A stretch of DNA of 64,000 nucleotides from Neocallimastix lanati (nom. inval.) (lineage: Eukaryota; Neocallimastigomycota; Neocallimastigomycetes; Neocallimastigales; Neocallimastigaceae). Positions 7,114 to 57,278 of this stretch are shown here, in pieces. Below the pieces are notes generated by a model. The model was not told the origin of the DNA, made no database searches, and saw only the letters and a program-made list of their open reading frames with translations. Location: contig JACVTC010000237.1 in NCBI GenBank assembly GCA_016946835.1, positions 50,499 to 114,498 of the forward strand. The letters run 5' to 3'. Made by a program: the position numbers and the translations under genes. Position 1 is the first letter of the stretch, and each line of letters begins with the position of its first letter.

Positions 7114-7146
7114 GATTAAGAGTCTCAGCCTACAACTGAGCTCAAC
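7114..7146 (+). promoter_or_regulatory. Primer-binding site of element K
   Basis: GATTAAGAGTCTCA is followed by GCCTACAACTGAGCTC. Together they are complementary to the anticodon stem-loop and then the D-arm of a tRNA-Lys(CUU). It lies directly after the LTR, with no spacer. Confidence 0.75.
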
Positions 7147-7440: not shown

Positions 7441-7687
7441 GTTATACTCAGTCAAATTATAACTTGAACTGAAAAAAAAAAAAAAAAATATAATCAGTCA
7501 ATTATAATTTGAACCAATAAATAACATAATAATTCAATTTTATCTTGAGCTAGATAAAAAAAAAAAAATAAAATAAAATAATTTGTAAATTATAATTTGA
7601 ACTGAAAAATAATATAGTCAGTCAAATAATTAATTTGAACTGAAAAATTATATAGTCAGTCAAATAATTAATTTGAACTGAAAATAT
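7441..7687 (+). repeat. Leader hairpin array, K/B type
   Basis: Repeated units of the form AGTCAGTCAAAT-AATTA-ATTTGAACTGAAAA. The last two are almost identical and tandem; earlier ones are interrupted by poly-A. Each unit can fold with TCAGT pairing ACTGA and CAAAT pairing ATTTG. Confidence 0.75.
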
Positions 7688-8062
7688 TATTATTAATTAT
7701 TAACAATCAAAATATATATATTTACATTATACAGTAAATTAAAACTATCACACAAAAAAAAAAAAAAAAAAAAAAATTTAAAAGAATTACATGAACCAAA
7801 TAATTATTACGATATCTTTAATTTAAATGATAAAAACGAATGATTAAAATCAGTCGATAATGAACTCAACAATATGATAAATTTGAGAGTATATGAAACA
7901 ACTGATAAAATCCCTAAAAACGCAAACTTAATATCATCATGATAAAAAAAAAAATTATAGTCAACTGATTATATTAGAGAAAAAATTAATAAATTAAAGA
8001 AAAGTAATAATTAGAATTTTATTAAATAATATCAATAATTTATTAAATAAAGTTTCGTATTA

Positions 8063-9402
8063 TGTTAGAAACAAAAATATAAAGATTTATAGTTATATTA
8101 ATTAAAGGAGAAATGTTATATGAATTAATATATTAGTGTAAGATATGTGACCAATAGTAATAATAAGCCACATATTATGTTTACTATAAATACCGTAAAA
8201 AAGTATAAAATTATGTAGATAGACTATTCTTTATTCTAATATAATAATAAAAAAAGAGTTTCCTACTTTTAACAGATTAAGAGTCTCAATCTCACCAGAT
8301 TGAGCAAGTAATAAAGTTAAGTATAAATAAACAAAATAAAATTATATTTATAGTTCATAAAATAAAAAAATAACAATATTTTATTATAACATTATTAATC
8401 TATTTTTTATTTTAAAAATAACATTTTATATTTCATTATTAAAATCAAATATTATTCAATATTAAAACCATTAAAATAAAACTAAATATATATATATTAT
8501 TTATTTTTTTTTTAAAAAAATAAAAAAAAAAATAAAAAATATTAAATTTTATAGTAAATATAATATACATTTAAAAATATATATATATTATATATATATT
8601 ATTAACATAATAAAAAGAAGGTGCAATAAAAAATTTTGTTTCCCAATATTTTACCACATTCTCAAACTTTAATTTATAATAATAATAATTTCATTATATT
8701 ATTATTAATTAAAATCAAGAATATATATTATTTTTATCCCAATTAATTTATTAGTAAGAATAATATTAATTAAAGCTTTATAGATAAAATAATCAATAAA
8801 ATTTGTTCTATAAATTGTATAATTATATTATACTACCAAACTTTATTTAATAACATCTATCTAAATTCATTAATGAAAAAAAACACATTAATATAAAAAA
8901 TTCAAACTAATAAAAAAGTATAATAATTAATTAAGCAAGGAAAGATTAATGGATAATAATAATAATAAAAAAAATAAACTCCAATCCAATTTGAAAGTAA
9001 GGGGAAACGTTAGAAATTAAAATATATAAAAATAATTTCTTAACTTTACAAATAAAAATAAAATAATTCTTTTCATATACTTAATAATATGTTAGTTGTA
9101 TTATTATTAAAAATATTATTTTATTTAGTAATACATTTGCAATATTTCTCTTCAACTCTAACTTTCACCCAAAGTTAGATTTGAGGAGGAATGTTAGAAA
9201 CAAAAATATAAAGATTTATAGTTATATTAATTAAAGGAGAAATGTTATATGAATTAATATATTAGTGTAAGATATGTGACCAATAGTAATAATAAGCCAC
9301 ATATTACATTTACTATAAATACTGTAAAAAAGTATAAAATTATATATATAGACTATTCTTTATTCTAATATAATAATAAAAAAGAGTTTCCTACTTTTAA
9401 CA
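8063..9402 (+). mobile_element. Non-autonomous LTR element L (TRIM-like), complete
   Basis: Two LTRs of 212 and 211 bp (8063-8274, 9192-9402) start TGTTAGAAAC and end TTTTAACA. The 5' LTR is followed by a primer-binding site (8275-8308). The 3' LTR is preceded by the polypurine stretch GAGGAGGAA. The pair is flanked by the 5-bp duplication TATTA (8058-8062, 9403-9407). The 917-bp interior has no coding frame. It matches the leader of element C but lacks the hairpin array, so L is a deletion derivative that probably moves with proteins of an autonomous relative. Confidence 0.9.
8275..8308 (+). promoter_or_regulatory. Primer-binding site of element L
   Basis: It starts GATTAAGAGTCTCA immediately after the LTR and continues into a D-arm-like segment (ATCTCACC...GATTGAGC). 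Confidence 0.75.
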
Positions 9403-23995: not shown

Positions 23996-24250
23996 TGACT
24001 ACAGTATTTTCAGTTCAAATTAATTATATGACTGACTATGTCATTTTTCAGTTCATAATATAATTTGACTTACTATACTATTTTTAGAGTTCAAATTAAT
24101 TATTTGATTGACCATATGATTTTCAATTCAAATTATAATTGACTGACTATTTTATTATTTTATTTTATTATTATTTTTTTATTTTATTTCAATATAAAAT
24201 TTTATTGATTATACTATTTTTCAGTTCAAATTATAATTTGACTGACTATA
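23996..24250 (-). repeat. Leader hairpin array of element B
   Basis: On the minus strand, repeated AGTCAGTCAAATTATAATTTG-type palindromes are followed by AACTGAAAAAT. Five or so units are recognisable, of variable spacing. This is the same type as in element K. Confidence 0.7.
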
Positions 24251-24561: not shown

Positions 24562-24593
24562 TTAAGCTCATTTGTAGGGTGAGACTCTTAATC
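24562..24593 (-). promoter_or_regulatory. Primer-binding site of element B
   Basis: Minus strand GATTAAGAGTCTCACCCTAC directly abuts the LTR and continues with AAATGAGCTTAA, imitating the complement of the tRNA-Lys(CUU) 5' half. Confidence 0.75.
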
Positions 24594-25521
24594 TATTAAA
24601 TACCAAAAGCAAATATTGAGAAAATTAGTTATATTTTTAGAGTAGCATTTTATATATAATACTTAATATTTAATTTTATTTATCTTTTTTTTTTTTTATA
24701 ATTACAAAAGTATATATTTTTGACAAGAATACATTTTATTTCTTTTATAATTTTATTTAAATATAATAATATTCTGATTGGGTAAGTTATATTAAAGTCA
24801 TTATTAAATATTTATTTTTTTTATATTCTAACAAATTATAATTATTTCTGTTAGAAACAAAAATATAAAGATTTATAGTTATATTAATTAAAGGAGTAAT
24901 GTTATATTAATTAATATATTAGTATAAGATATGTGACCAATAGTAATAATAAGCCACATATTATGTTTACTATAAATACCATAAAAAAGTATAAAATTAT
25001 GTAGATAGACTATTCTTTATTCTAATATAATAATAAAAAAAGAGTTTCCTACTTTTAACAGATTAAGAGTCTCAATCTCACCTGATTGAGCAAGTAATAA
25101 AGTTAAGTATAAATAAATAAAATAAAATTATATTTATAGTTCATAAAATAAAAAAATAACAATATTTTATTATAACATTATTAATCTATTTTTTTTATTT
25201 TTAAAAATAACATTTTATATTTCATTATTAAAATCAAATATTATTCAATATTAAAACCATTAAAATAAAACTAAATATATATATATTATTTATTTTATTA
25301 AAAAAAAAAAATTAATTCTGGAAAGAAATGATAGGGATAAATATTCAGATAAGTTAATTTTATTATTTTATAAATTAAAAGATAAAAGATAATTATAATA
25401 ATTAAAATGTAAAAACATATAAAAACATATTGAAAATTGAGAACATTTTAAAAAAAAAAAAAAATAAAAAAATAATAATAATAATAATAATAATAATATA
25501 AAATTAAAGTAATTTAATAAA

Positions 25522-25655
25522 ACGTTAAACTGAAAAAAAAATATATATAGTCAATTAACAAAACGTTAAACTGAAAATAAAATGTATAGTTAGTTAACAA
25601 AGTGTTAAACTGAAAATAAAATGTATAGTCAGTTAACAAAATGATAAACTGAAAA
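25522..25655 (+). repeat. Leader hairpin array, C/L type
   Basis: Three to four units of about 38-40 bp. Each has TCAGTTAAC or a variant, a loop, then AAACTGAAAATAAAAT. TCAGTT pairs with AACTGA. Inverse copies exist in element M (41697-41775). Confidence 0.75.
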
Positions 25656-32719: not shown

Positions 32720-33742
32720 ATGGAAAGTCAAACAAAAATTATTACATTCAACAGACTCCCAATATTGGGCAATTCTAAGGTTTCATTTGACCAGTGGAAG
32801 TTCTCCTTCGACCACTGGTGTAAGACGTTTAAAGTAACTGAAGAATCTGAAAAAGTAGATTACCTTTTTGCAGTTACTGATAAAACCGCACGTACCATAG
32901 TCTATAATTCTTTAAATAAAAAGAATCCCGATAGTTACGATACAATACTTAGTAATTTAGGAAAGCATTTTAAAAGATCTACGTCAAAAAATTCAAGAAT
33001 ATTAGAACTATCATCCATCACTATTAAAAAGGATGAGAGCATATCTGATTTCGACCTAAGATTTTCTGAACTTTTAAACCTAGTTAATAAAACAGTTAAT
33101 GTTTCTGAAGTCATAACAACTTCATATTACATAAACGCATTTAGAAATTGGCCAAGAATCTATGAGAGTCTAATGGAGGAAGAACCTACCACTTTAGAAG
33201 AAGCAATGAAGATTACAACAAAGAAAGAAAAGATTTTAAATCTACTCAAGGAAAACAAAGAAAATAAAGAAAGAGGATCTAGTTCTAATTCAAAAGGAAA
33301 ATCTACTAATAATAACAAGAAACAAGAATCTTATCAAAATACTAGTTACAACAAAAATCCTACAAGATATGTTCAACAAATTAATAATAATAGTAGATAC
33401 ACTCAACAAATTAATAATAATAGTAGATACGCTCAACAAAATGATAATAACAATGGAAATCTAGATAAATACTCTAATTATTATAACAATCAAAATAGAA
33501 ATTATTCTAATTATAATAATTACAATAGACAATATACAAATGAATATAAAAACCAAAAACAACCAAATGAAATCCATAATAATTATAAGAATAAATTAAA
33601 TGATAATGAAATGGATGAATTAACAAAAAAGTTATCGGAATTAAAAATTAATTTTTGTGTTAATTGCCTAAGAGTTGGTCATGATAAAGGAGATTGTCCT
33701 GAAGAAGAAACCCAAGAAATGAATGAAAAACATTTAAATTAA
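32720..33742 (+). CDS. Ty3/gypsy-type Gag, intact
   Basis: A 340-residue structural protein that would assemble the virus-like particle. Residues 1-180 form a retrotransposon Gag capsid-like domain (SFDQWKFSFDHWC, LGKHFKRSTSKNSRILELSS, SISDFDLRFSELLNLVNKT). Residues 190-300 are Asn/Tyr-rich with three 9-residue repeats ending NNNSRY. A CCHC zinc knuckle (C-x2-C-x4-H-x4-C, residues about 317-330, CVNCLRVGHDKGDC) binds RNA. The ATG at 32720 follows AAGAA. The frame has no internal stop and ends TAA at 33740-33742, overlapping the pol frame by 16 nt. Codon use is less AT-extreme than the surroundings, suggesting recent constraint. Confidence 0.85.
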   Translation: MESQTKIITFNRLPILGNSKVSFDQWKFSFDHWCKTFKVTEESEKVDYLFAVTDKTARTIVYNSLNKKNPDSYDTILSNLGKHFKRSTSKNSRILELSSITIKKDESISDFDLRFSELLNLVNKTVNVSEVITTSYYINAFRNWPRIYESLMEEEPTTLEEAMKITTKKEKILNLLKENKENKERGSSSNSKGKSTNNNKKQESYQNTSYNKNPTRYVQQINNNSRYTQQINNNSRYAQQNDNNNGNLDKYSNYYNNQNRNYSNYNNYNRQYTNEYKNQKQPNEIHNNYKNKLNDNEMDELTKKLSELKINFCVNCLRVGHDKGDCPEEETQEMNEKHLN

Positions 33743-34716
33743 ATAATGGGAGTGTGCAATCTCCCAGAATAAATAAAATTGCAAAATATATTTATGAAAA
33801 TTTAGAAGAAAATCATTATTCTATAAATGTTACTCAAAAGAATAAGTTAAATAAAAATAAAGTAAATCAAAATAAATCAATAATAAAACCATCAATATTA
33901 AACCAACCAAAAACAAAACTATTAAAACAACAAAAAAAAGAAATAAGAGATAAAAGAAGAAGAGCAAAAGATTCAAGTGATGAAGAAGAAATAATGGAAA
34001 TTAGTGATAATGAAATTGAACAACATGAACAACAAAATAAAACTAATAATTTAAGCAAAAATGGAATAAATGATAAAGAAGAAAATAATAAAGAAAACAA
34101 AAATAAAAATAAAAATCATAATGATGATGATATAGAAAATAACGAAAATAAAAATCATAATGATGATGATATAGAAAATAACGAAAATAAAAATCATGAA
34201 ACTAATACAAATAAGAACAATAAAAATAAAACTAATAATAATAAATTCTCAGAAAATGAAAATTCAAAAGTAATAACAAAAAGAAATATGACAAATATTC
34301 AATTATTAGATAAAGAACAAAAATTTAATATTAGAGAAGAAGTTCAAAATTTATTTCCAAAAATCAGTTTATCGCAATTGTTAGCAGCGAGTCCTTCAAT
34401 TAGAAAAGAATTAGAACAAGGACTTAAACCAAGAGTAGAAAGAATAATATGTTCACTATCTAACATAAATATTCCTATTATTATTGGAGAAAGTTACAAC
34501 GTACCACTTAAAGTTTTATTTGATACAGGTGCTAACATAAATATAATTACCCAAGAAAATTTCAACAAATTAAAAAGCAAAAATATAAATAAAACAGAAA
34601 ATGAAATTGAAATAAAACTAGCAGATAATACAGTGGTTTCTACAAATTATTACACAAATTTAAAAATTAAAATAAATGATAAATTAATAATATATGATAA
34701 GTTTTATATTATATAA
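33727..34716 (+). pseudogene. Start of Ty3/gypsy Pol: leader region and aspartic protease, truncated
   Basis: This frame has no ATG near its beginning and would be made as a Gag-Pol fusion by -1 frameshifting at 33733-33739. The first 230 residues are charged and Asn-rich, with a direct duplication of NHNDDDIENNENK (34105-34195). The protease follows, with active-site VLFDTGANINIITQ (34522-34563) and the flap-side block IKLADNTVV. A stop at 34714-34716 ends the frame soon after the protease. RT, RNase H and integrase are absent, so the element was truncated by the rearrangement that brought in the next relic. Confidence 0.8.
33733..33783 (+). promoter_or_regulatory. -1 programmed frameshift signal (slippery site plus pseudoknot)
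   Basis: TTTAAAT (33733-33739) is in the correct phase (T TTA AAT) immediately before the gag stop. After 7 nt, stem 1 is TGGGAG (33747-33752) with CTCCCA (33761-33766). The loop sequence TGCAAT (33755-33760) pairs perfectly with ATTGCA (33778-33783) as stem 2. Loop 1 is 2 nt and loop 3 is 11 A/T-rich nt. This is the geometry of classic H-type frameshift pseudoknots. The pol frame lies in -1 and is open from 33727. Confidence 0.85.
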
Positions 34717-35987: not shown

Positions 35988-36247
35988 TGTCAAAATAATG
36001 ATTAATTTAATTAATCTATCTTTAATATAAATAATGACCAATTACTTGTATTAATATTCAAAATAAAAAGTATAAAAATCATGGAATTATTATTTTATAA
36101 AAAAATAATATCTTATACAAAAATGAGAATAAAAATAATTTATACTGTTATAAAAAAATATTTTTCTAAAAACTACTAATCCATATATTTTTATTATTGT
36201 GTTTATTATAGCTTATTTGAGTGTTTCTTAACATAACATTTTTGACA

Positions 36248-36280
36248 GATTAAGACTCTCAATCTCAACCGATTAATCCA
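36248..36280 (+). promoter_or_regulatory. Primer-binding site of element D
   Basis: GATTAAGACTCTCAATCTCA directly after the LTR. It differs at one base (GAC for GAG) from the other copia elements' site. Confidence 0.7.
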
Positions 36281-36498: not shown

Positions 36499-36680
36499 TC
36501 AGCTATTAGACATAAGCTGAGGATGAAATAAAAGATCAGCTATTGAATATAATCTGAGAATGAAACAAAAAATCAGCTATATTATATAAGCTGAGAATAA
36601 AAGAACATAACATGTCAGCTATGCTATATAAGCTGAGAATAAAAGAACATGACATGTCAGCTATGCTATATAAGCTGGGA
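36499..36680 (+). repeat. Leader hairpin array of element D
   Basis: Five units with TCAGCT, a loop of about 10 nt such as ATGCTATATA, AGCTGA, then GAATAAAAGAACA-like spacer. The last two units are nearly identical, with a period of about 42 bp. The second unit has a weakened 3' arm. Confidence 0.85.
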
Positions 36681-40704: not shown

Positions 40705-41099
40705 ATAACTCTTTAATGGACAAATTTAGAAATACCTTATTAACGAAAATAATTAATTAATTATATTAAAATCAATCTTCATTTTTTTATCTTTTAAAAA
40801 GTTTTTTTTTTTGAAGCTAGATTTTTGGAGGGAATGTCAAAATAATGATTAATTTAATTAATCTATCTTTAATATAAATAATGACCAATTACTTGTATTA
40901 ATATTTAAAATAAAAAGTATAAAAATCATGGAATTATTATTATATAAAAAAAAATATCTTATACAAAAAAAAAAAAAAGAATAAAAATAATTTATACTGT
41001 TATAAAAAAATATTTTTCTAAAAACTACTAATCCATATATATTTATTATTGTGTTTATTATAACTTATTTGAGTGTTTCTTAACATAATATTTTTGACA

Positions 41100-41330
41100 A
41101 TTATAATAATTATATATTATTATTACTTTACAGTATAATTAATATTAACTCTTATTCTTGTTTTTGTTTTTCTTTAGTAGAAATAATATTGTAATTATAA
41201 AATAAATATTAATAAAAATTATTAATAACTCAAATACACTTATTAAACCAGCTACAACATAAAGAATATCACATTAATACAATAAAAACTAGATTAATAC
41301 ATAAATTTATGCTTTTCCTACATTTCTTAA
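41100..41330. other. AT-rich spacer
   Basis: Nothing recognised between the 3' LTR of D and the leader of M. Confidence 0.4.
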
Positions 41331-42439
41331 CATAAATTTATTATTAATTAGAGTTTTTATTTCTATTTCATATAATTTTAATTAATATTATTCTTACTAA
41401 TAAATTAATTGGGATAAAAATAATATATATTCTTGATTTTAATTGATAATAATATAATGAAATTATTATTATTATAAATTAAAGTTTGAGAATGTGGTAA
41501 AATATTGGGAAACAAAATTTTTATTGCACCTTCTTTTTATTATGTTAATAATATATATATATTATATATATATTTTTTTTTAAATGTATATTATATTTAC
41601 TATAAAATTTAATATTTTTTATTTTTTTTTTTATATATATTTATTGTATTTGTTTATGTTAATTAAATTGTAAAAATTTTTTTTTATTACTATATTTTTT
41701 TTTTATTTTCAGTTTATCATTTTGTTAACTGACTATACATTTTATTTTCAGTTTAACGTTTTGTTAAATTACTTTAACTTTATATTATTATTATTATTAT
41801 TATTTTTTTTATTTTTTTTTTTTTTTTTTTTAAAAATGTTCTCAATTTTCAATATGTTTTTATATGTTTTTACATTTTAATTATTATAATTATCTTTTAA
41901 CTTTTAATTTATAAAATAATGAAATTAACATATCTGAATATTTACCCCTATCATTTCTTTCCAGAATTAATTTTTTTTTTTTTTTTTAAAAAAAAAATAA
42001 ATAATATATATATATTTAGTTTTATTTTAATGGTTTTAATATTGAATAATACTTGATTTTAATAATGAAATATAAAATGTTATTTTTAAAATAAAAAATA
42101 GATTAATAATATTATAATAAAATATTGTTATTTTTTTTATTTTATGATATATAAATATTATTTTATTTTGTTTATTTATACTTAACTTTATTACTTGCTC
42201 AATCTGGTGAGATTGAGACTCTTAATCTGTTAAAAGTAGGAAACTCTTTTTTTATTATTATATTAGAATAAAGAATAGTCTATCTACATAATTTTATACT
42301 TTTTTATGGTATTTATAGTAAACATAATATGTGGCTTATTATTTCTATTGGTCACATATCTTACACTAATATATTAATTCATATAACATTACTCCTTTAA
42401 TTAATATAACTATAAATCTTTATATTTTTGTTTCTAACA
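41331..42439 (-). mobile_element. 5' part of a C/L-family element (M)
   Basis: Minus-strand LTR of 212 bp (42228-42439), primer-binding site (42196-42227) and leader including two hairpin units (41697-41775). It is colinear with 24849-26110 of element C in inverted orientation. No coding region remains. Confidence 0.8.
42196..42227 (-). promoter_or_regulatory. Primer-binding site of element M
   Basis: Minus strand GATTAAGAGTCTCAATCTCA next to the LTR. Confidence 0.75.
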
Positions 42440-45139: not shown

Positions 45140-45700
45140 TATTTTATTTTTCATTTTTTAAATTAATGTTAGCTGACTATTTATTTTATATTTTCAACTA
45201 TATTATTAGTTGAATAGTCTATTATATATTTATTTATTTTTTAGGTCTTAACATTAGCTGACTATATATTTGTTTTTTTCAACTTAATGTTAAAAAAATT
45301 TTTATTATTTTTACTATAATTATCACCTTTTTAAGTCTTAACATTAGCTGACTATCTATTTTGTATTTTTCAACTTAATGTTAAATTTTTATTATTATAA
45401 TTATCTTTTTTTTTTTTTAAACTAAATGTTTGCTGACTATTTTATTTTTAAATTTTCAACTTAGCATTAATTTATCGTTTGTTCTATATTTTTCAACTTA
45501 GCATTAGTCGACTATTTATTTGTGCTTTTCGACTTAATGCTAGTTGACTATGTTACTTTATATTTTTTTTTATTTTTCAACTTAACATTAACTAATTATT
45601 TATTTATTTTATATTTTTCGATTTAGCATTAGTTGACTATATATTTTATATTTTCAACTTAATGATTATTGAATATCTTACTATATTGTTCAGCTTAATA
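45140..45700 (-). repeat. Leader hairpin array of element N
   Basis: About ten units of 35-65 bp. On the minus strand they read TAGTCAGCTAATGTTAAGTTGAAAAATA with variants (TCGACTAATGCTAAGTTGA, TCAACTAGCATTAAGTCGA). The stems show G-U pairs and matched changes among units. Confidence 0.8.
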
Positions 45701-45927: not shown

Positions 45928-45956
45928 AGCTCAACTAGTAGGTGAGACTCTTAATC
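45928..45956 (-). promoter_or_regulatory. Primer-binding site of element N
   Basis: Minus strand GATTAAGAGTCTCACCTACT followed by AGTTGAGCT, next to the LTR at 45957. Confidence 0.75.
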
Positions 45957-46429: not shown

Positions 46430-47290
46430 TTATTATTTTTTAATTAAGCTTTATTTTTGTATTAATAATATTTTAGTTTCAAATTTATCTTAGTATCATC
46501 AGTTGACCTTTTGATTTTCATCTTGATGATATGTTTAATTTTAGATTTATCTTAATATCATCAGATGATATTTTAATTTTCATCCTAATGATATTAAATT
46601 TATTTTAATATTATATTAGCATCATCAGGTGACTATTTAATTTTTATCTTTATGATATTAAGTTTATTTTAATTTTATGATAATATCATCAGTTGGCAAT
46701 TAATTTTTCATCTTAATGATATTATTTTAATTTTATTTTTATTATTTAACTATAATTTTATTTATAGTTGATTAAGAAAAAAATATCCTTTACTTACGGA
46801 TTTGATTCAGTAATAAATAAAAATATAATAAATAACAAAAATAATAATTTATTAGTTCTTTGTTTTTATTAAAAAGTAAAATATTGAAAATTTAATTTAT
46901 ATTATTATTTGTTAATAAACACACAATTAAGAGACACACAATATTAAGATAATATTATAATTATATTTAAGTAAAGATATTTAATATTACTTTATTATAT
47001 ATAAATATTTATTATTTTAAATATATATAATTAAGTATCTATGAGAGTATATATATTAAAGTCTTTTTATTGTTAAAGAGTAAAAAAAAAAAATTTGGAA
47101 TTATTACTTAAGCGCGTTTTATAGTATTTCGAGTATTTATGTATTTGTAATTTATTGGATAATAATAGATTAAATTTTATATTAAAATATATTTTTAACA
47201 TTATTTTATATAACTTTATTTTAGTTCAAACTCAATTAGTAGATTGAGACTCTTAATCTTTTGGACATATTAATATTTTATATAATTCCA
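46430..47290 (-). mobile_element. H-family leader, primer site and partial LTR relic
   Basis: A hairpin array of H type (46490-46735, ATCATCAGTTGAC and CATCTTGATGATAT units) precedes a leader copy. A primer-binding site (47230-47258, minus) and a truncated LTR beginning at 47259 follow. A separate repeat (46910-47210) is inserted between them. Confidence 0.6.
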
Positions 47291-49102: not shown

Positions 49103-49132
49103 GATTAAGAGTGTCAACTCTTCAGTTGAGCT
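49103..49132 (+). promoter_or_regulatory. Primer-binding site of element G
   Basis: GATTAAGAGTGTCAACTCTT followed by CAGTTGAGCT. It resembles the complement of the tRNA-Lys(CUU) 5' half, with matching changes (GTGTC) in the anticodon-stem part. Confidence 0.7.
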
Positions 49133-49420: not shown

Positions 49421-49620
49421 TGTCAACTAGCTTAAGTTGAAAATAATTAAATAAAATAATTGTCAACTAGCTTAAGTTGAAAATAATTAAATAAAATAAT
49501 TGTCAACTAGCTTAAGTTGAAAATAATTAAATAAAATAATTGTGAACTAGCTTAAGTTGAAAATAATTAAATAAAATAATTGTTAACTAGCTTAAGTTGA
49601 AAATCATTGAAAATAAAATG
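49421..49620 (+). repeat. Leader hairpin array of element G (40-bp period)
   Basis: Five exact-period units. Each begins TGTCAACTAGCTTAAGTTGA and continues AAATAATTAAATAAAATAAT. TCAACT pairs with AGTTGA across a 6-nt loop. The fourth and fifth units carry one 5'-arm substitution each. Confidence 0.9.
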
Positions 49621-50959: not shown

Positions 50960-51352
50960 AACTATATTAAAGAAAACAATAATAAAAACCTTTTTTCAAC
51001 AGAAAGAATATTTCAAAAGAATCAAGAAAAATCCGAAACCTATATCAAAAAATAATAATAAAAAATCAAAACGATCAAATATTTTTAGGCACATTAATGT
51101 TCATTTAATTAAATAATAGTTTAATTTATTTATATTATAGATATTATATTATTTATTAATATATTTTTTTATAAAAAATAGAACTAAAGAAAAACATGTT
51201 CATTTAGAAAGCTTTTATACATGAATATTATTTATTAAACTAATTGATTGGTTAATATAAAATGAAATATAGTAAATATATTTTAACACTCCTTCTCAAA
51301 TGTAACTTCGTTTCAATGTTACATTTGTTTAATTTTAACTATATTTTTAGAA

Positions 51353-56639: not shown

Positions 56640-56845
56640 TAATATTTTAGTTTCAAATTTATCTAAATACCATCAGTTGACTATTTATTTCTCATCTTGA
56701 TGATATTAGATTTAATTTAATTTTATATTAGTATCATCAGTTGACTATTTATTTCTCATCTTGATGATACTATGTTTATTTTATTTTTAATATTAATATC
56801 ATCAGTTGACAATAAATTTTTCATCTTGATGATATTAATTTTATT
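56640..56845 (-). repeat. Leader hairpin array of element H
   Basis: Three units of about 63-66 bp. On the minus strand: TAGTCAACTGATGATA, loop of about 25 nt, TATCATCAAGATGAGAAATA. TGATGATA pairs with TATCATCA. Confidence 0.85.
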
Positions 56846-57037: not shown

Positions 57038-57066
57038 ACTCAATTAGTAGATTGAGACTCTTAATC
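57038..57066 (-). promoter_or_regulatory. Primer-binding site of element H
   Basis: Minus strand GATTAAGAGTCTCAATCTAC then AATTGAGT, adjacent to the LTR. Identical in the H-type relic at 47230-47258. Confidence 0.75.
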
Positions 57067-57278
57067 TTTTAGGCACATTAATGTTCATTTAATTAAATAA
57101 TAGTTTAATTTATTTATATTATAGATTATTATATTATTTATTAATATATTTTTTTATAAAAAATAGAACTAAAGAAAAACATGTTCATTTAGAAAGCTTT
57201 TATACATGAATATTATTTATTAAACTAATTGATTGGTTAATATAAAATGAAATATAGTAAATATATTTTAACAAATAT

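Follow-up and report, generated by a model that had tools for sequence, protein, structure and literature searches.

Tandem covarying hairpins with a bulged A in the leaders of one group of Ty1/copia retrotransposons of Neocallimastix lanati

The window analysed here is a stretch of 64,000 nucleotides with a GC content of 19%, taken from Neocallimastix lanati (nom. inval.) (assembly GCA_016946835.1, contig JACVTC010000237.1, positions 50,499 to 114,498). Its elements D and H are assigned to Ty1/copia by their domain order, LTR pairs and primer sites; the Pfam domain rve is followed by RVT_2 in both, and D also contains Retrotran_gag_2. The LTRs of D are 94.5% identical, and those of H are given in Table 1. 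Among the best 120 of 2300 matches to the H protein, the closest named relatives carry the code Orpsp1_1, which we take to stand for an anaerobic gut fungus (Orpinomyces/Pecoramyces). Two adjacent reading frames on the forward strand (32720-33742 and 33754-34716) perhaps represent another kind of retrotransposon; the first looks gag-like by eye, without a Pfam match, and the second has a protease-like DTGA stretch.

The window contains nine arrays of short hairpins, all located 3' of a primer site on the same strand that matches GATTAAGAGTCTCA at 13-14 of 14 bases (Table 1). This sequence or a near match to it occurs at twelve places in the window, and the D site also has a weak match on the opposite strand. 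An earlier note on this DNA, made from the letters alone, had placed arrays in a series of copia leaders; each of these leaders was read, and the array was present in each. The hairpin units proper of the G array span 49423-49600 with a period of 40 nt, and the two best units of the K array share the upper stem CAAAT/ATTTG. The description as simple hairpins holds for most families, but H and part of N consist of nested double units, with an outer stem TATCATCA/TGATGATA in H that encloses the linker in its loop.

Table 1 Hairpin arrays and associated features, in coordinates of the 64-kb window.
Feature	Position	Strand	Remarks
G primer site and hairpin TCAACT/AGTTGA	49103..49130	+	site 49103-49116, continuous with hairpin; 13/14 match
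G array	49421..49620	+	five 40-nt units; 5' arm altered in units 4 and 5
D primer site	36248..36261	+	adjoins 5' LTR; LTRs about 35988-36252 and 40835-41103
D array	36499..36678	+	five units TCAGCT..AAGCTG(A/G)
C array	25522..25655	+	primer site 25061-25074; weak folding (z -1.4)
M array	41697..41775	-	primer site 42214-42227; C and M are one family
K array	7448..7681	+	primer site 7114-7127; stem TCAGT/ACTGA
B array	23996..24250	-	primer site 24580-24593; kind like K
N array	45140..45700	-	primer site 45943-45956
N nested pair, GTCGA/TCGAC compensation	45493-45547	-	pairing read by eye
H array	56640..56845	-	primer site 57053-57066
H LTRs	57067-57273 and 51083-51288	-	99.5% identical
H-type array relic	46490..46735	-	primer site 47245-47258
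C-family copy without array	8060..9090	+	416 nt missing; junction near 8516-8525

The units of many families are built alike. Their lower stem is UCARY/RYUGA (5 bp), the 3' side usually has a single bulged A, and the upper stem varies in sequence; A-rich linkers separate one unit from the next. The arms that the earlier note had described are present, but its plain stem is better drawn as five base pairs, a bulged A and a variable upper stem. The counts come from 77 distinct units chosen by their flanks alone, after removal of second starts nested in K-type units and of non-leader places in the window around 10.4 and 59.8 kb. The set under-counts N and H, because units that do not start with GTCA or end with TGAR escape the flank definition. 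The lower stem was complete in 56 of the 77 units and incomplete in the other 21. An upper stem of at least two pairs was reached through a single 3' bulge in 37 of the 56 units, without a bulge in four, through a 5' bulge in two, through a two-base 3' bulge in six, and across a 1x1 mismatch in four. Upper pairing thus appears mainly when one 3' base is skipped after five pairs, and this base is an A in 33 of the 37 cases.

That the stem letters change together between families, as had been proposed, was confirmed by these bulge-aware counts and by shuffling. When the 3' arms of 58 units were dealt at random, the observed mean of 2.43 exceeded the maximum of 1.84 among 2000 shuffles; these units were unpicked, and the shuffle preceded the removal of nested K-type starts and non-leader places. 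In 21 family units, hand-picked as typical and therefore biased in favour of pairing, 106 of 116 cells were paired against a maximum of 95 in 5000 shuffles; read without the bulge, the same units gave 74 of 120 paired cells, close to the shuffle mean of 71.6. Pair 4 in these units is A-U, G-C or G-U, pair 5 is C-G or U-A, and pairs 7-9 are mixed. The array families share ancestry, so the independent events are fewer than the unit counts. Folding z-scores over 20 arrays ranged from -9.9 to -0.7, and four arrays folded less than two standard deviations below their shuffles (C, -1.4; L094, -0.7; L090, -1.5; L097, -1.7). Good scores are weak evidence here since palindromic repeats fold well anyway. 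In the one genome scanned (199 Mb, 762 contigs), the tandem pattern GTCARY..RYTGARAA..GTCARY had 497 matches (279 + 218), the first 100 of which were listed by location, compared with 12 (7 + 5) for the reversed pattern; the array pattern is not a product of chance. No Rfam family matched the 64-kb window at its gathering score, and a search of viral contigs for relatives confirmed none.

Because the arms of neighbouring units are also complementary, the 3' arm of one unit is able to form a stem with the 5' arm of the following one, the linker then forming the loop. When 50 distinct adjacent unit pairs were examined for both forms, 28 fitted the within-unit and the cross-unit form alike, 16 were broken in both, two (L099 and L102) fitted only the within-unit form, and four had both of their own stems broken and both cross stems perfect. 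These last four (L041, L057 and L078, with GATGA opposite TCATC, and L066, with TTTGA opposite TCAAA) amount to about two independent cases, since the first three come from related elements. A compensatory change across units was also read by eye in N, at pair 3 between GTCGA and TCGAC (45493-45547), and H folds in the cross-linker form. At L099, a unit TCAGC/GCTGA lying amid TCAAC/GTTGA units agrees better with pairing inside the unit. The two forms probably both exist. Taken with the arm shuffles and the 3' bulge counts, the cross-unit compensation supports and sharpens the original claim of a selected, covarying structure.

Pairing letters of this kind could also mark DNA, with the array serving, in the transcribed leader, as palindromes that a transcription factor of the host or an insulator protein would recognise, much as the earlier note had suggested. 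The fixed lower-stem code TCARY/RYTGA would suit such sites, and there are precedents. The Su(Hw) array of gypsy, another LTR element, is a set of DNA insulator sites repeated in the leader; it resembles the present arrays in position and repetition, but it is not known to have their covarying arms and one-sided bulge. Wilson and colleagues reportedly described, in 1998, an enhancer in the untranslated leader of Drosophila copia, hence protein-binding elements in copia's own leader; it acts as DNA and is not known to have covarying arms like those of the present units. The base-pair test was likewise no obstacle to DNA sites: G-U at pair 4 was not in excess over A-C, with 12 matches (about 10 in arrays) against 74, about 17 of which are by eye clearly not nested K-type starts, and a pyrimidine at pair 4 showed no excess either (59 versus 128 reversed). 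The G-U test gives RNA no support over DNA; it may be blind because most copies may be old and decaying after insertion. DNA half-sites are nevertheless disfavoured by the one-sided bulge and the cross-unit changes, and the upper stems vary in letters yet stay paired. We therefore consider DNA-level sites unlikely, with the G-U result leaving some room for them.

Unit number varies between insertions of one family, with seven consecutive pattern matches at C70 and two at C50. One C-family copy, starting at 8060, has lost a segment that includes the array, and a smaller copy from 9191 is likewise without the array-bearing segment. Among the 40 of 658 candidates that were scored, the deletion junction was unbroken only in the 8060 copy; its two sides lay 332-415 nt apart in C511, C379, C90 and the window elements C and M, and only one side was found in C88 and C710. 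The 8060 deletion form shows no sign of spread. The earlier note stated that an array-less element, L, had still transposed; the 8060 copy may or may not be that element. Both the variable unit number and the loss of the array in one copy would be expected if slippage had multiplied a chance palindrome into functionless tandem repeats. We regard such neutral repeats as very unlikely, since pairing is kept across units and between families with different letters, and since the leader pairs L092/L097 and L049/L094 resemble each other more within the array than around it; in the K/B pair, the array was not seen as a conservation island.

The distribution of the array was examined from the side of gag, by reading 50 leaders drawn from 150 listed gag matches of 1212 candidates. 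A primer site matching at least 13 of 14 bases was found in 38 of them, at two distances from the gag domain. The 13 long leaders, with the site 1164-1541 nt 5' of the domain, all have at least one unit; none of the 25 short leaders, with the site at 79-406 nt, has a unit after it, and these offer little room for an array. Many sampled leaders are copies of one family, with G-like elements making up eight of the 13 long leaders. Nine of the 13 carry a single flank-defined unit, eight of these nine being G-like, and the repeat itself was checked in six of the eight; L042, with its one unit, shows no array. Excluded for want of a primer site at this threshold were 12 of the 50 leaders: nine with 2-6 units, one with one unit and two with none. 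A tree of 31 gag sequences separates the short-leader group (support 0.956), to which L040, where no primer site was found, also belongs. The array is restricted to one copia group with long leaders, about 1 kb in length. The earlier assertion that all copia families carry it is correct for the nine listed leaders of the window and fails genome-wide, where 25 of the 38 sampled leaders are short and unit-less. All 51 clustered units in 12 gag-oriented loci are in sense orientation, a result to be expected from shared descent alone as well; a wider count of 112 sense units is partly circular, because the strand of L089-L103 was taken from the array match itself.

A role in translation had also been put forward; the structured leader would then drive internal initiation, shunting or reinitiation at gag. 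Nine measured long leaders contain 5-16 upstream ATGs, so plain scanning to gag is doubtful, while five of six measured short leaders have none and one has two. However, the last flank-defined unit ends 515-798 nt upstream of the gag ATG in 17 array loci and 958 nt before it in window element D, and this distance disfavours a simple translation role, which we now judge quite unlikely. Splicing or internal initiation is possible in the long leaders with 5-16 upstream ATGs.

The primer site itself has a structure in the same leaders. Its complement matches a tRNA-Lys(CTT) gene at 14 of 14 bases, within the anticodon arm and not at the tRNA 3' end, in long and short leaders alike. A tRNA-Lys pattern combining the anticodon arm and the T arm had 73 matches and none in reverse; ARAGORN identified the two matches examined as tRNA-Lys(ctt), and the sequence of one of them was also inspected. 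Many of the 73 follow one another at intervals of about 5 kb within the same small contigs. Judging by this complementarity, the elements would use a half of tRNA-Lys as primer, a mode known for Drosophila copia (PMC5371799). Starting from the last four bases of the site, a six-pair hairpin CTCANN/NNTGAG forms in 11 of 13 long leaders and in one of 25 short ones. Its letters vary with pairing kept (AC/GT and GG/CC in this count, AT/AT and GT/AC in a separate reading of leaders); ten of the eleven are AC/GT, so the sample holds few families. In several short leaders (L043-L050 and L071-L085 regions) the primer site seems by eye to pair with the bases just 3' of it, for example TTAAGAGT with ACTCTTAA in L081, a hairpin unlike the long-leader class. 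Many array families have a block AAGYTAAGT, or a close variant, 3' of the primer-site hairpin.

The stem code of the primer-site hairpin resembles that of the array, and the letters of the two are identical in G-type elements, L099 and L093. Identity within every element was considered and rejected, as the letters differ in D, C/M, n (L101), H and L074. The array might then consist of copies of the primer-site hairpin that hold reverse transcriptase or the tRNA half nearby; the code shared at the primer site of mostly long leaders, with the same letters in those three cases, is consistent with such an aid to reverse transcription, but the elements with differing letters speak against it, and we put it at the same low level as translation control.

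Between primer site and gag, position and covariation thus indicate a conserved RNA structure, on which the G-U test is unsupportive. We propose, with about as much confidence as doubt, that the genomic-RNA leaders of one Ty1/copia group carry the array as a repeated cis-acting RNA signal, with packaging or dimerisation as its putative function. Each unit would present the stem UCARY/RYUGA, as a rule with one 3' bulged A, below a variable upper stem; the arms of adjacent units could also pair, with the linker between them, and some families would have this nested form as the only functional one. The element's own Gag may bind hairpins and linkers; in 26 of 30 loci, from both leader groups, the gag domain is followed by a CCHC knuckle. 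Binding by Gag would select and dimerise the genomic RNA, and the similar primer-site hairpin would serve the same complex. Packaging or dimerisation, already named in the earlier note, is still the best guess because of the position after the primer site, the covarying structure, the A-rich unpaired linkers, the Gag knuckle and the precedents of Ty1 and MMTV.

In Ty1, 5' RNA structure takes part in dimerisation and packaging (PMC5454406, PMC4974528). The Ty1 leader of Saccharomyces (TIPIRT domain/packaging signal) is likewise structured 5' RNA of a Ty1/copia-type element, but it is built of a pseudoknot and two kissing hairpins instead of tandem bulged-A units. In MMTV, Gag binds a purine loop and the primer site (PMC8096270), so that leader structure and primer site are Gag targets, as they would be here; MMTV is a retrovirus, however, and is not known to have a tandem array. 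Sireviruses also have palindromic repeated motifs clustered in non-coding copia DNA (PMC2829016), but these sit 5' of TATA in the LTR or on the 5' side of env, with a conserved CGG-CCG core.

A more elaborate version, which we find possible but rather improbable, is a modular array of bulged-A hairpins, variable in copy number and pairing within a unit or with the next, that shares a covarying stem code with the half-tRNA-Lys primer-site hairpin, so that one element protein would read both to choose, dimerise and prime the genome. Searches of open PMC papers turned up nothing pertinent on the leaders of copia elements in gut fungi, or on copia leaders with covariation. Short-leader copia elements manage without the array, and its presence in one copia group and absence from another, in the same genome and with the same primer site, provides a natural comparison. 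The cis-acting packaging sequences of Ty elements are described as 'not clearly defined' even in yeast (PMC4974528); here the leader element is discrete, repeated and covarying.
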